This document shows positions 12,563 through 49,577 of a stretch of DNA of 64,000 nucleotides, in pieces. Position 1 is the stretch's first letter; every line of letters starts with the position of its first letter. Location of the stretch: positions 1 through 64,000 of the forward strand of contig JAJZUL010000010.1 of NCBI GenBank assembly GCA_021848545.1, given 5' to 3'. Made by a program: the position numbers and the translations under genes. This stretch comes from Pseudomonadota bacterium. Its GTDB lineage: Bacteria; Pseudomonadota; Alphaproteobacteria; Rhodospirillales; Magnetospirillaceae. The notes under the pieces were generated by a model that searched no databases, had not been told where the DNA came from, and worked only from the letters and a program-made list of their open reading frames with translations.

Positions 12563-12704
12563 GAGCCCGCCCCGAAACTCGCCAGGGTGAGCCGAAAATG
12601 GCGGTTTTCGAGAACCGCAGCGGAGCGTACTTTCTGTATGTGAGCAGCGGAAGCGCAGAAAGCCGCCATTTGCAGGCCGCCATGGCGAGTTTCGCGAGAG
12701 GCTC
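12563..12704 (+). repeat. Dispersed repeat family B, copy 1 (long hairpin element)
   Basis: A 142-bp element bounded by GAGCC and GGCTC with nested inverted repeats: outer CGAAACTCGCC/GGCGAGTTTCG, inner AAATGGCGGTTTTC (12596-12609)/GAAAGCCGCCATTT (12658-12671), and an apical CGTAC/GTATG pair. Copy 2 is at 27241-27383 in the same orientation; a half copy is at 48573-48611. It directly follows copy A1. The 12187-12767 gap otherwise holds no gene. Confidence 0.8.
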
Positions 12705-12767: not shown

Positions 12768-13772
12768 ATGATTCCAATGACCGAAACGGTACTTGTCACC
12801 GGCGCGACCGGCTTTGTCGGCTCGGCCGTCGTAAGGGCGTTGCTGGCCCGGGGGCGCCGGGTCCGGGTTCTGGCGCGGGCCGGGTCGGACCGGCGCAATC
12901 TCGACGGCCTCGACATCGAGATCGCCACCGGCGATCTCACCGATGCCGCCTCGCTGGCCCGCGCCGTGGCCGGATGCGGGGCGCTGTTCCATGCCGCCGC
13001 CGATTACCGGCTGTGGGTGCCCGATCCCGCCGCCATGCGCCGCACCAATGTCGATGGGACCCGCGATCTGCTGCGCGCCGCCGCCGCGGCCGGAGTGGAG
13101 CGGATCGTCTACACCTCCAGCGTGGCGACCCTGGCCCTGGACCCAATGGGCCGGCCGGTGGACGAAACCGCCCAGGCCACCCTGGCCGACATGGTGGGGC
13201 CGTACAAGCAAAGCAAATTCCTGGCCGAGGAAGAGGTGCGCCGTCTGGTGCGCGAGGAGGGGGTGCCGGCGGTGATCGTCAGCCCTTCGACCCCGGTGGG
13301 ACCGGGCGACGTGCGGCCCACCCCCACCGGGCGCATGATCGTCGAGGCCGCCAGCGGCCGCATGCCGGCCTTCGTCGATACCGGCCTCAACATCGTCCAT
13401 GTCGAGGATGTGGCCGAGGGCCATCTGCTGGCCTATGACAAGGGCGTCGTTGGTGAACGCTATATCCTGGGCGGGGACGACATGACCCTGGCGGCGATCC
13501 TGGCGGCGATCGCCAACATTGTCGGGCGCCGGCCGCCGACGGTCAAATTGCCGCGCACCCTGTTGATGCCGGTGGCGGCCCTGGCCGAGGGCTGGGCGCG
13601 TCTGTCGGGGCGCGAGCCCTTCGTCACCCGGGACGGGCTCAAGATGGCGGCCAAGCACATGTATTTCGTCTCGGACCGGGCCAAACGGGAATTGGGCTAT
13701 CGGGCGCGGCCGGCGGAAGACGCGCTGAAGGATGCCGTCGCCTATTTCCGGGACCGGGGATTGGTGGCATGA
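12768..13772 (+). CDS. hpnA: Hopanoid-associated sugar epimerase/reductase HpnA
   Basis: A 334-residue extended short-chain dehydrogenase (dihydroflavonol reductase-like). Rossmann motif TGATGFVGSAVV is at the N-terminus, YTSSVATL carries the active-site Ser, and the catalytic pair is in GPYKQSKF (Tyr-x-x-x-Lys). HpnA heads hopanoid operons and is assigned to side-chain modification, though its exact reaction is not established. A second ATG at 12777 (MTETVLVTG) is an equally good start; neither has a clear ribosome-binding site. Overlaps hpnB by 4 bases (ATGA). Confidence 0.9.
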   Translation: MIPMTETVLVTGATGFVGSAVVRALLARGRRVRVLARAGSDRRNLDGLDIEIATGDLTDAASLARAVAGCGALFHAAADYRLWVPDPAAMRRTNVDGTRDLLRAAAAAGVERIVYTSSVATLALDPMGRPVDETAQATLADMVGPYKQSKFLAEEEVRRLVREEGVPAVIVSPSTPVGPGDVRPTPTGRMIVEAASGRMPAFVDTGLNIVHVEDVAEGHLLAYDKGVVGERYILGGDDMTLAAILAAIANIVGRRPPTVKLPRTLLMPVAALAEGWARLSGREPFVTRDGLKMAAKHMYFVSDRAKRELGYRARPAEDALKDAVAYFRDRGLVA

Positions 13773-27154: not shown

Positions 27155-27199
27155 TTTTATGCGTTTTATGCGTTTTATGCGTTTTATGCGTTTTATGCG
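27155..27199 (+). repeat. Five tandem copies of the 9-mer TTTTATGCG
   Basis: Five exact, uninterrupted units (27155-27199) next to an AT-rich tract, 42 bases before repeat B2. Not within a credible gene. Simple repeats of this kind change copy number by slippage. Confidence 0.9.
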
Positions 27200-27240: not shown

Positions 27241-27383
27241 GAGCCAGACTCGAAACTCGCCAGGGTGGGCCGAAAATGGCGGTTTTCGAGAACCGCAGCG
27301 GAGCGTACTTTAATGTACGTGAGCAGCGGAAGCGCGGAAAACCGCCATTTACAGGCCGCCATGGCGGCTTTCGGGTCGGGCTC
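27241..27383 (+). repeat. Dispersed repeat family B, copy 2
   Basis: 143 bp, GAGCC to GGCTC, same orientation as copy B1. The inner stem AAATGGCGGTTTTC/GAAAACCGCCATTT is perfect here, and the apical hairpin is CGTAC-TTTAAT-GTACG. Differences from B1 fall where G-U pairs keep the plus-strand RNA folded. Confidence 0.82.
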
Positions 27384-47698: not shown

Positions 47699-48571
47699 AT
47701 GTCCGATTCCGCCGATTACACGCCCCCGAAGGTCTGGACCTGGACCAAGCCCAGCGGCGGCGCCTTCGCCGCCACCAACCGGCCGATCGCCGGCCCGACC
47801 CACGAAAAGGAATTGCCGGTCGGACGGCATCCGCTCCAGCTTTATTCGTTGGGTACGCCGAATGGCGTCAAGGTCACCATCATGCTCGAGGAATTGCTGG
47901 CGCTGGGGCACGCCGGCGCCGAATACGACGCCTGGCTGATCAAGATCACCGACGGCGACCAGTTCGGGTCGGGTTTCGTGGCGGTCAATCCGAATTCGAA
48001 GATCCCCGCCTTGCTCGACCGCAGCGGCCCGGACCCGGTCCGGGTGTTCGAATCCGGCTCCATCCTGCTTTATCTGGCGGAAAAGTTCGGCGCTTTCCTG
48101 CCCCAAGATGTGGCCGGCCGGACCGAAACCCTGAACTGGCTGTTCTGGCAGATGGGCAGCGCGCCCTATCTTGGCGGCGGCTTCGGGCACTTCTACGCCT
48201 ATGCGCCGACCAGGATCGAATACGCCATCGACCGCTTCGCGATGGAGGTGAAGCGGCAGCTCGACGTGCTTGACCGCCGGCTTGCGGAAACCCCCTATCT
48301 CGCCGGCGACGATTACACCATCGCCGATATCGCGACCTTCCCCTGGTATGGCGGGTTGGCCAAGGGCTGGTCATACGACGCGGCCGAGTTCCTGTCGGTT
48401 CAGGACTACCGGAACGTCCAGCGGTGGGCCGACGCCATTCTCGCCCGACCGGCGGTCAGGCGCGGCCGGATGGTCAACCGCGTGATCGGCGATCCGGCCG
48501 AACAGCTCCGCGAGCGCCACGAGGCCGGCGATTTCGACACCAAAACCCAGGACAAGATCGGGGGGGCGTGA
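47699..48571 (+). CDS. yghU: Glutathione S-transferase family, YghU-like disulfide-bond oxidoreductase
   Basis: A 290-residue protein. PPKVWTWTKPSGGAFAATNRPIAGPTHEKELPVG is the long N-terminal extension typical of YghU, followed by the thioredoxin-like domain (LYSLGTPNGVKVTIMLEELL, VNPNSKIPALLD, VFESGSILLYLAEKFG) and the helical GST-C domain ending QRWADAILARPAVRRGRMVNR. YghU binds two glutathiones and reduces disulfides. GAGGAG precedes the ATG at 47699. Confidence 0.9.
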   Translation: MSDSADYTPPKVWTWTKPSGGAFAATNRPIAGPTHEKELPVGRHPLQLYSLGTPNGVKVTIMLEELLALGHAGAEYDAWLIKITDGDQFGSGFVAVNPNSKIPALLDRSGPDPVRVFESGSILLYLAEKFGAFLPQDVAGRTETLNWLFWQMGSAPYLGGGFGHFYAYAPTRIEYAIDRFAMEVKRQLDVLDRRLAETPYLAGDDYTIADIATFPWYGGLAKGWSYDAAEFLSVQDYRNVQRWADAILARPAVRRGRMVNRVIGDPAEQLRERHEAGDFDTKTQDKIGGA

Positions 48572-48572
48572 T

Positions 48573-48611
48573 CCATTTGCAGGCCGCCATGGCGACTTTT
48601 GGGTCGGGCTC
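48573..48611 (+). repeat. Dispersed repeat family B, 3' half copy
   Basis: CCATTTGCAGGCCGCCATGGCG through GGGTCGGGCTC matches the right end of B1 and B2. The left half is missing. It begins 2 bases after the yghU stop codon and ends at the stop of the convergent cache-domain gene. Confidence 0.7.
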
Positions 48612-49577
48612 TCACACGCAGGGCGTCGCGCTGGTGCCCAGCCAGAAATCGACGCTTTTTTCCAGGAATTCGCGCCACGGCATGTAATGGGAGCCGTCGC
48701 AGGAAAAGGTCAGGGCGACGATTCCGTTGAAGATGTTGAGCGTGCCGGCCCGCAGGTACAGGGTTTCGTCCATGAAGCGCAAGGCGCGAAAGACGTCCAG
48801 GATCTTGGGGATGGCGTCCGCGGGGATGACGGCGTCGGCGGGGTATTCCCGGCGCGGGTAGGCGAAACAAAGGTTGGGGTCGCTGAGATCGTCGAAGCCG
48901 TGCAGGCGGTAGCGATAGGGGTCGTCCATCAGCCACAGGGTCACGCGGGAACTGGAAAAGTGAACCTTGGCGTGAAACACGCCATGCTGGGTGATCAGCT
49001 CGGTGAGCAGGGCCAGCACCTCGTCGATATGCTCGTCCATCGGGCTGGTGACCCGTTGCTGGTGGAACAAACCGGCGCGGATCGACGGGTCGCCCCTCAT
49101 CTGCAACCATTGTTCGGGTTGCTGGTACAGGGCCTGGGTGGCGGGCAGTTCCCGCAAATCGAAATCCGCGCCCAGATAGCCCAGCAAAGCGCCGTTCTCG
49201 TCAAGAATGCGCTGGACGGCGGTCAGGGACGGGCGCCGCGCGTTGCGGCTGATATAGGCTCCCGACAGGGAAAGCGGGGCGCCCGCCAGGGCCTCCGCCA
49301 GATAGGGGCGGTCGCCGCGGTCGCGGCCGAAATGCTCCGCCAGCAGTCCGGCGCGCGACGCGTTGGCGGTGATCTGCCGGGCCTGGGCGTCCAGAAGATA
49401 AAGGTATTTGGCGTACGGCAGTTCGGCCAGACCCTCCATCAGGCACGCCTCCAGCGCCGGCCGGTCGGGCCAGACCTTGCGGCAGGTCTCGGCCAGATGG
49501 GCCAGGGGGCCGGCCAGCCAGCCCTTGAGAATCTGGCGCTGGCGGTCGATGGATTGTTGCAGGTCGGTCACGGGCAT
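48612..49577 (-). CDS. Soluble PDC/cache sensor domain protein
   Basis: A 321-residue protein with no TM segment or signal peptide. A PDC-type sensor lies at about residues 40-150 (YLYLLDAQARQITANASRAGLL, GDRGDRPYLAEALAGAPLSLSGAYIS, LTAVQRILDENGALLGYLGADFDLREL), the pattern of dCache/PDC ligand domains, here in the cytosol. The rest (DEHIDEVLALLTELITQHGVFHAKVHFSSSRVTLWLMDDPYRY) is conserved-looking but not recognised. No output domain is present. GGAG lies before the ATG. Confidence 0.72.
   Translation of the reverse strand: MPVTDLQQSIDRQRQILKGWLAGPLAHLAETCRKVWPDRPALEACLMEGLAELPYAKYLYLLDAQARQITANASRAGLLAEHFGRDRGDRPYLAEALAGAPLSLSGAYISRNARRPSLTAVQRILDENGALLGYLGADFDLRELPATQALYQQPEQWLQMRGDPSIRAGLFHQQRVTSPMDEHIDEVLALLTELITQHGVFHAKVHFSSSRVTLWLMDDPYRYRLHGFDDLSDPNLCFAYPRREYPADAVIPADAIPKILDVFRALRFMDETLYLRAGTLNIFNGIVALTFSCDGSHYMPWREFLEKSVDFWLGTSATPCV

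Follow-up and report, generated by a model that had tools for sequence, protein, structure and literature searches.

A probable IS5-type MITE with a widespread hairpin core in a Magnetospirillaceae genome

A palindromic repeat that is dispersed through the genome of a Magnetospirillaceae bacterium (assembly GCA_021848545.1) appears to be an IS5-type MITE. It carries a widespread hairpin module, is tolerated by the genome, and is sometimes probably used as a 3′-UTR or intercistronic mRNA hairpin. The probability of this reading as a whole is put at about 0.75. The mobility of the repeat is well supported by its terminal inverted repeats, by TNA duplications and by an IS5-family element with matching ends in a related genome.

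Copies in the window and across the genome

The window, i.e. the whole stretch of 64,000 nt that was analyzed (contig JAJZUL010000010.1, positions 1–64,000), contains the following features.

12563–12704, plus strand: complete copy 1, 142 bp; flanks TTG and TTA, duplication degraded; intergenic between two divergent genes
12563–12581, plus strand: left terminal inverted repeat of copy 1, GAGCCCGCCCCGAAACTCG, an IS5-type end; a matching end is found in the full-length IS5-family element of relative G022
12686–12704, minus strand: right terminal inverted repeat of copy 1, partly degraded; its plus-strand reading is CGAGTTTCGCGAGAGGCTC
12583–12685, plus strand: interior domain of copy 1, element bases 21–123; common to alphaproteobacterial plasmids with differing outer arms
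12616–12656, plus strand: apical core of copy 1, GC-GGA-GCGTAC-loop-GTATGT-GA-GCA, inside a direct GCAGCGGA repeat; the stem has T instead of C
27241–27383, plus strand: complete copy 2, 143 bp; flanks TAA and CAA; intergenic between two divergent genes
27294–27335, plus strand: apical core of copy 2
48573–48611, plus strand: 39-bp 3′ half copy, its 5′ half lost; wedged between two convergent stop codons

A sequence-only reading of the window had described two full copies and a half copy at these positions, and all three are found there, with lengths of 142, 143 and 39 bp. The two substitutions that it quoted between the full copies (A to G and C to T) are present in the sequence, as is the direct repeat that it saw on both sides of the apical hairpin. 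The folding energy of copy 1 is −82.2 kcal/mol compared with a shuffle mean of −50.1 (z = −8.1), and none of 200 dinucleotide shuffles is equally stable. The pairing in the proposed long hairpin is real. The right end of the half copy adjoins TCA at positions 48612–48614, which is the stop codon of a minus-strand gene (48612–49577), and its left end lies one base past the TGA stop codon (48569–48571) of a plus-strand gene.

Two other features lie close to the full copies. Positions 27160–27199, approximately 40 bp upstream of copy 2, contain four TGCGTTTTA units arranged head-to-tail. ARAGORN predicts a minus-strand tRNA-Thr at positions 12871–12965, within the plus-strand frame that adjoins copy 1; the Rfam tRNA model is negative and the prediction is probably a false call.

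The host genome assembly comprises 3.17 Mb in 85 contigs. Of the 73 BLAST matches to copy 1 in it, 40 are long. When up to three mismatches are allowed, the core pattern hits 83 places and its reversed control none; the terminal pattern hits 188 places and its control 3. The recurrence of the repeat is thus far beyond chance. The copy set is based on 80 stretches fetched around copies, with the window added. It holds 81 core-bearing copies, of which 62 have both ends and 19 are cut, 18 of the latter by a contig end (e.g. on contigs C1, C7, C15, C79 and C80). The assembly thus breaks at the element, and the true genomic copy number is probably above 81. The 62 complete copies are 122–152 bp in length and are without a transposase gene of their own. 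Fifty-seven are exactly 142 bp long, with a mean identity of 96.3% to their own consensus.

The fetched stretches also contain eight short copies, 44 or 58 bp long, that consist of barely more than both termini, and TNA flanks match in six of them. Since matching TNA flanks occur on 44-bp copies, the termini may be sufficient for movement. At one locus (L040, positions 1437–1494; C78:54478–54535), an internally deleted 58-bp copy with its own inverted repeats adjoins the relic of an IS5-type transposase gene.

Termini, target duplications and the IS5 family

The copies end in GAGCCCGACCCGAAA-type inverted repeats and are dispersed through the genome. Identical TNA triplets flank 43 of the 58 complete copies that have both flanks (TCA in 18, TGA in 9, TAA in 8 and TTA in 8); shuffled flanks give a mean of 13.2 and a maximum of 23 in 2000 shuffles. 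The next triplets outward agree in 2 of the 58 copies, and a flank identity of 4 bp is found in none.

The host genome has an IS5-family transposase gene (NF033580, E-value = 2.3e-69) inside a 955-bp element. This element has about ten outer bases in common with the repeat, and its flanks are unequal, TGA and TCA. A donor element with ends identical to those of the repeat was not found in the host genome. The sequence-only reading had advised a search for a mobilizing transposase, and one of IS5-family type with matching ends is found in relative G022. There, a 953-bp IS5-family element (locus L305) has the ends GAGCCTGACCCGAAACTCG and GAGCCTGACTCGAAACTC, which match those of the repeat, and is flanked by TTA and TAA. 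Its transposase frame is a related one (70% identical) and displays one internal stop codon. In relative G003, a core-bearing element starts with GAGCCTGACTCATAATTCGC, like the IS of the host genome. G022 shows no match to copy 2. Two further matches, at L036 and L037 (36 and 26 bp), look like chance and were excluded.

Terminal inverted repeats, TNA duplications and the match of its ends to an IS5-family element together identify the repeat as an IS5-type MITE. An IS5-family transposase would move the copies in trans, in a cut-and-paste manner. Ends of this kind with a TNA duplication belong to what we take to be the IS1031-type subgroup of the family. The repeat resembles other IS5-family MITEs in having end repeats in common with the IS5-family element of a relative, in the 3-bp TNA duplication, in the lack of a transposase gene, in its many copies and in its length of 142 bp. 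It differs from them in the interior, which is a conserved foldback module that is found elsewhere with other outer arms.

Stem changes and the core in other organisms

The sequence-only reading had argued from two substitutions that pairing is kept only as G-U, and thus that the repeat is an expressed plus-strand RNA structure rather than a DNA palindrome. The 57 copies of 142 bp were scored over the 54 pairs of the consensus fold. The pair is unchanged in 2924 cells. One-sided changes lead to G-U in 29 cells, to A-C in 38, to other mismatches in 39 and to a Watson-Crick pair in five, and two-sided changes give a Watson-Crick pair in 39 and other combinations in four. The two G-U examples therefore do not represent the copies as a whole. 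In 49 diverse relatives, the stem beneath the core shows 31 G-U (G-T) versus 34 A-C changes among the matches listed, a count blurred by internal loops within the helices. G-U does not exceed A-C in either set, and the ratios of 29 to 38 and 31 to 34 rule out G-U changes as a ground for inferring selection on plus-strand RNA instead of a DNA palindrome.

Covariation, which had been proposed as a check, does favor a conserved paired structure: scores are above those of shuffles in three alignments, with the qualification that the shuffles ignore relatedness and that a DNA palindrome could covary too. In 54 distinct host copies the score is 0.057 versus 0.034 (0 of 500 shuffles as high), and two-sided changes occupy 38 cells versus 10.2 in shuffles. 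Seven of the eight pairs with such changes are in helix 1, i.e. the outer arms; in the other helices changes are mostly one-sided or unpaired. Arm-to-arm correction of the palindrome is a sufficient explanation of the outer-arm compensation without any function.

These host data bear on the alternative that the repeat is purely selfish DNA, with arms kept matched by template-switch correction or gene conversion and with a location that reflects purifying selection against insertions inside genes. The near confinement of host compensation to the outer arms agrees with it, as do the 44-bp copies that are without an interior and the many relatives in which the outer arms vary between copies yet match within a copy. 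Less easily accommodated are a core sequence kept across phyla while the stem below is replaced in pairs, and, as described in the next section, an orientation bias elsewhere and an element that follows HK97-type capsid genes directly, always in the same orientation. Selfish DNA alone is a real possibility, at rather less than even odds.

The interior of the repeat is found on plasmids. A search with copy 1 picks up 27 plasmid records, among them records of Sphingobium, Shinella, Agrobacterium and Phyllobacterium, and 11 of the 27 matches span exactly bases 21–123 at 80.8%–86.4% identity; none reaches 80% of the query. Six of the 27 loci were opened. Four display the same interior in other outer arms and two match a shorter part.

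The core is more widely distributed. The pattern GGAGCGTAC N2-9 GTACGTGAGCA is found in at least 117 stretches of genome contigs, compared with about 4 expected by a simple estimate. The matches listed include many from Mesorhizobium and others from alphaproteobacteria including Rickettsia, gammaproteobacteria, Nitrospirota, deltaproteobacterial groups, Bacillota (Listeria, Paenibacillus and clostridia), Bacteroidota and Binatota; they do not form a taxon census, many come from metagenome bins, and chance or contamination could account for a taxon that is matched once. In two Bacteroidota matches (L153 and L200) the stems are paired well past the search pattern. The GC just outside the pattern is also kept, with C in 117 and G in 118 of the 119 matches listed.

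Viral contigs show 20 matches to the core and none to the reversed control; a doubly changed stem gives 10 matches and a singly changed stem none. The basal pair in these contigs is G-U in 20, A-U in 1 and G-C in 0. A relaxed search of the foreign loci gives 198 hits versus 3 for the reversed motif, and the basal pair at the core hairpin is G-U in 125 of the 135 distinct hits among the loci listed. Nineteen of the 135 have other stems, several fully compensated, with a base of G-T in 9, A-T in 4, G-C in 3 and other pairs in 3; some of these 19 are probably chance.

For the count of changes in relatives and for the alignment of the stem below the core, 49 of the 119–120 core hits were used, i.e. 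those with flanks less than 70% identical. In the alignment (51 sequences) this stem is replaced in concert. The covariation score is 0.235, compared with 0.100 in shuffles and 0.129 in the best slid control, and 0 of 500 shuffles are as high. Two-sided changes affect 4 pairs, which does not exceed the 3.9 of shuffles (431 of 500). A covariance model detects the element in 25 of 289 genomes of the host's class, host genome included. The upper arm upstream of the core is interrupted by a common stretch, AAGACGGGCGCGAAGCGACCAAACAAGGTGG, in a Mesorhizobium locus and a viral contig (L205 and L269), an arrangement that resembles the insertion of one repeat into another.

In the window's repeats and in the cores of 16 of the 117 genome-contig loci, no Rfam 15 family reaches its gathering score, and the Rfam matches in those 16 loci are tRNAs and one AsdA only. 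A permissive Rfam search of copy 2 gives only matches far below their gathering scores.

On the rival reading, selection acts on a structured RNA expressed from the plus strand, and the DNA palindrome is incidental. Strong folding, a G-U that is the commonest basal pair, and a GGA/GA internal loop that is kept (as part of the search pattern, with GCA/GA in some relatives) speak for it. However, G-U is not above A-C in the 57 copies or the 49 relatives, the TNA duplications show DNA transposition, and an Rfam match at gathering score is lacking for the repeats in the window and the 16 loci. In addition, the strand transcribed from genes that enter the element is more often the opposite one (15 of 20 in the host; 22 of 27 one-sided cases elsewhere, among the matches listed). 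This reading is improbable.

Stop codons, gene neighbors and comparable repeats

Any TNA triplet reads as a stop codon on one of the two strands. Gene calls were made with simple scripts rather than taken from annotation, and 110-aa frames in GC-rich DNA can be spurious among them. By these calls, 20 of the 62 complete copies lie exactly on the stop codon of a called gene (20 of the 60 outside called genes) and 2 of the 62 lie inside called genes. The background in the stretches used is 304 TNA-type stop codons among 2983 non-coding or stop TNA sites (10.2%), which gives an enrichment p of about 1e-6 with copies treated as independent. The 3-bp duplication would rebuild the stop codon; insertions on stop codons would thus be nearly harmless, and this may explain why the repeat is tolerated. 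Most host copies are probably near-neutral passengers. The suggestion in the sequence-only reading to look for copies at the 3′ ends of genes was well founded, as these exact stops and the loci elsewhere attest.

At the 20 exact stop codons, the gene enters from the 3′ side of the element in 15 and from the 5′ side in 5 (p = 0.041), or 17 versus 8 with overlaps allowed (p = 0.11). Within 30 bp the counts are 21 versus 15 and within 150 bp they are 26 versus 22. The counts fade beyond the exact stop codons, thus the bias is weak in the host genome. Ten of the 53 copies that are outside called genes and flanked by called genes on both sides sit between two 5′ ends.

In other genomes, an open frame ends within 90 bp of the core on the antisense side only in 43 of 119 core hits on genome contigs, on the sense side only in 13, on both in 25 and on neither in 38; the same test on 49 non-redundant hits gives 22, 5, 4 and 18 respectively (p = 0.0015), all among the matches listed. 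Counts of the longest non-overlapping frames among the matches listed are 53 antisense versus 21 sense within 60 bp (non-redundant 23 versus 7, p = 0.005) and 59 versus 35 within 200 bp (non-redundant 27 versus 15, p = 0.09). The distance from core to stop codon is 56–58 or 46–49 bp in 44 of the 68 antisense-side frames among the matches listed. Such fixed distances indicate that the end of the element abuts the stop codon. Ten of the 119 foreign hits, among the matches listed, are inside long frames.

Capsid genes are among the neighbors. At 14 loci (13 of the 30 viral-contig loci and L208, Devosia) the element lies directly after a gene whose product ends in AIKLLK[FI], and the opposite orientation is found at none. 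Thirteen of these 14 proteins were scanned (all but L260, a twin of L259) and all 13 are PF05065, the HK97-type Phage_capsid family. At L265, an unrelated capsid protein, GP7 (PF20911), has the same arrangement. The 13 distinct capsid-side elements display two-sided changes in 13 of 26 stem pairs, with a covariation score of 0.371 versus 0.132 (0 of 500 shuffles as high). A search of phage records with one capsid-side element gave no match.

Eight other neighboring proteins were chosen by eye from the 68 antisense-side frames for familiar-looking ends and thus do not represent the neighbors at large. They are two HypD and two Ffh, each pair from two phyla, together with GroEL, GAPDH, an EtfB-type protein and methionine aminopeptidase. 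The hypD genes with the element behind them are from Desulfopertinax and a Bacillota bin, and the ffh genes are from Kosakonia and a Peptococcaceae bin (L139, L196, L209 and L222). The element also follows an etfB-type gene in Mesorhizobium and, by annotation, in Aminobacter (L224 and L330), which is perhaps an old shared site. Of the plasmid loci that were opened, one has the element between etfB and etfA, another has it oppositely oriented between two ABC-transporter genes, and a third has it between convergent genes. The others place it at the 3′ end of a gene for a hypothetical protein, between yaaA and the gene of an IS3 transposase, and in a stretch without annotation.

Where the element lies behind a gene, the transcript would end in the long hairpin or pass through it. 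The hairpin would then probably slow 3′-to-5′ decay or set the relative expression of neighboring genes, mostly on the strand opposite to that favored by the sequence-only reading. REP and intercistronic hairpins stabilize mRNA. A role of this kind in the 3′-UTR or between cistrons may be held by some copies. Both full copies in the window, which lie between divergent genes, speak against it. The GGA/GA loop and the G-U at the base agree with plus-strand RNA, whereas gene orientation points to the opposite strand. An intrinsic terminator was rejected: copy 2, the sole copy scanned, has no terminator-like site, and the ends run into TNA, with no T tract in the flanks inspected.

A stronger form of this proposal is that the repeat is primarily a REP-like 3′-UTR or intercistronic mRNA element that functions on that opposite strand, with mobility secondary. 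Among the matches listed, the fixed spacing to the stop codon in 44 of 68 frames and the excess of antisense-side frames (43 versus 13 one-sided cases, non-redundant 22 versus 5; longest frames within 60 bp 53 versus 21, non-redundant 23 versus 7) are in keeping with it. So are the positions behind HK97-type and GP7-type capsid genes and behind hypD, ffh, groEL, GAPDH and etfB-type genes, and between etfB and etfA on a plasmid. It is at variance with the 10 of 53 host copies between two 5′ ends and with the oppositely oriented copy between the ABC-transporter genes. Among the matches listed, the bias weakens at 200 bp and 10 of 119 foreign hits are inside long frames. RNA of the opposite strand also has A-C where the plus strand has G-U. 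This stronger form is possible but rather unlikely. A single-stranded DNA hairpin recognized by a recombinase, like attC sites or REP/RAYT pairs, would account for the asymmetry of a core that is sequence-conserved amid otherwise variable stems, and the orientation bias is compatible with it; the 3-bp target duplications, however, are those expected of a DDE transposase, and this alternative is very improbable.

Beyond the reading as an IS5-type MITE, a broader proposal can be made tentatively, with the odds against it. One hairpin module of ancient origin (GC-GGA-GCGUAC-loop-GUACGU-GA-GCA, on top of paired stems that vary) would be present across several phyla and their phages and bound by a widely conserved host factor. 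It would act at mRNA 3′ ends and between cistrons of strongly expressed genes, and would have been captured repeatedly by the termini of unrelated mobile elements, here those of the IS5 family.

Bru-RS elements are similar in size to the RPEs of Rickettsia. Several published repeats are comparable, as far as the portions of the cited papers drawn on here describe them. The nearest in behavior is QMITE2/CbsR16 of Coxiella burnetii, a foldback of 150–190 bp located mainly in 3′ UTRs and intergenic regions, of which one copy yields an sRNA and of which the authors saw alphaproteobacterial relatives (PMC5896051). The likeness to this foldback MITE is by description, not sequence; unlike the present repeat with its 3-bp TNA duplication, QMITE2 has direct repeats of 7–11 nt, and it contains a GTAG REP targeted by IS1111 (PMC5896051). 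Among bcr1–bcr18 of the Bacillus cereus group, bcr1–3 are called MITE-like and are often in UTRs or between operon genes, and bcr3 alone is correlated with mRNA decay rate in the portion of the study used (PMC3446304). The label and locations of bcr1–3 are like those of the present repeat; a sequence link was not found in the plasmids searched. A presumed identity of the Listeria form with bcr1 was not confirmed: in a search of plasmids the Listeria relative matched only one Sphingobium and one Phyllobacterium plasmid, and no Bacillus plasmid.

Bru-RS of Brucella and RPE of Rickettsia are palindromic repeats (PMC2266754, PMC2267715, PMC2229807), with an RPE length of 105–146 bp (PMC2229807). 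As described in the portions of these papers at hand, they resemble the present repeat in being palindromic and in occurring in or near core-bearing taxa (Ochrobactrum and Rickettsia), a comparison by description and not by sequence; RPEs differ in that they are described as inserted in-frame within genes as well (PMC2266754, PMC2267715, PMC2229807). REPs also lie behind genes and between cistrons and form hairpins, but are given as 20–40 bp with GTAG or CGTC tags in the part of the source consulted (PMC3733652), compared with about 100–140 bp and another core here. Similar locations are reported in the available parts of reviews of small mobile repeats (PMC10969869, PMC2229807) and of the B. 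cereus mRNA-decay study (PMC3446304).

A literature search of partial coverage, which included the core letters, found no publication uniting these repeats through the core, a weak negative. To our knowledge, repeats of such size are mostly described genus by genus. Here one hairpin core with compensatory changes links repeats of alphaproteobacteria, Nitrospirota, Bacillota, others and phage-like capsid clusters, and the linked repeats sit at stop codons in a preferred orientation. It can now be tested whether mobile hairpins serve as ready-made mRNA 3′ ends, including those of major capsid genes, and which protein, if any, reads the core.
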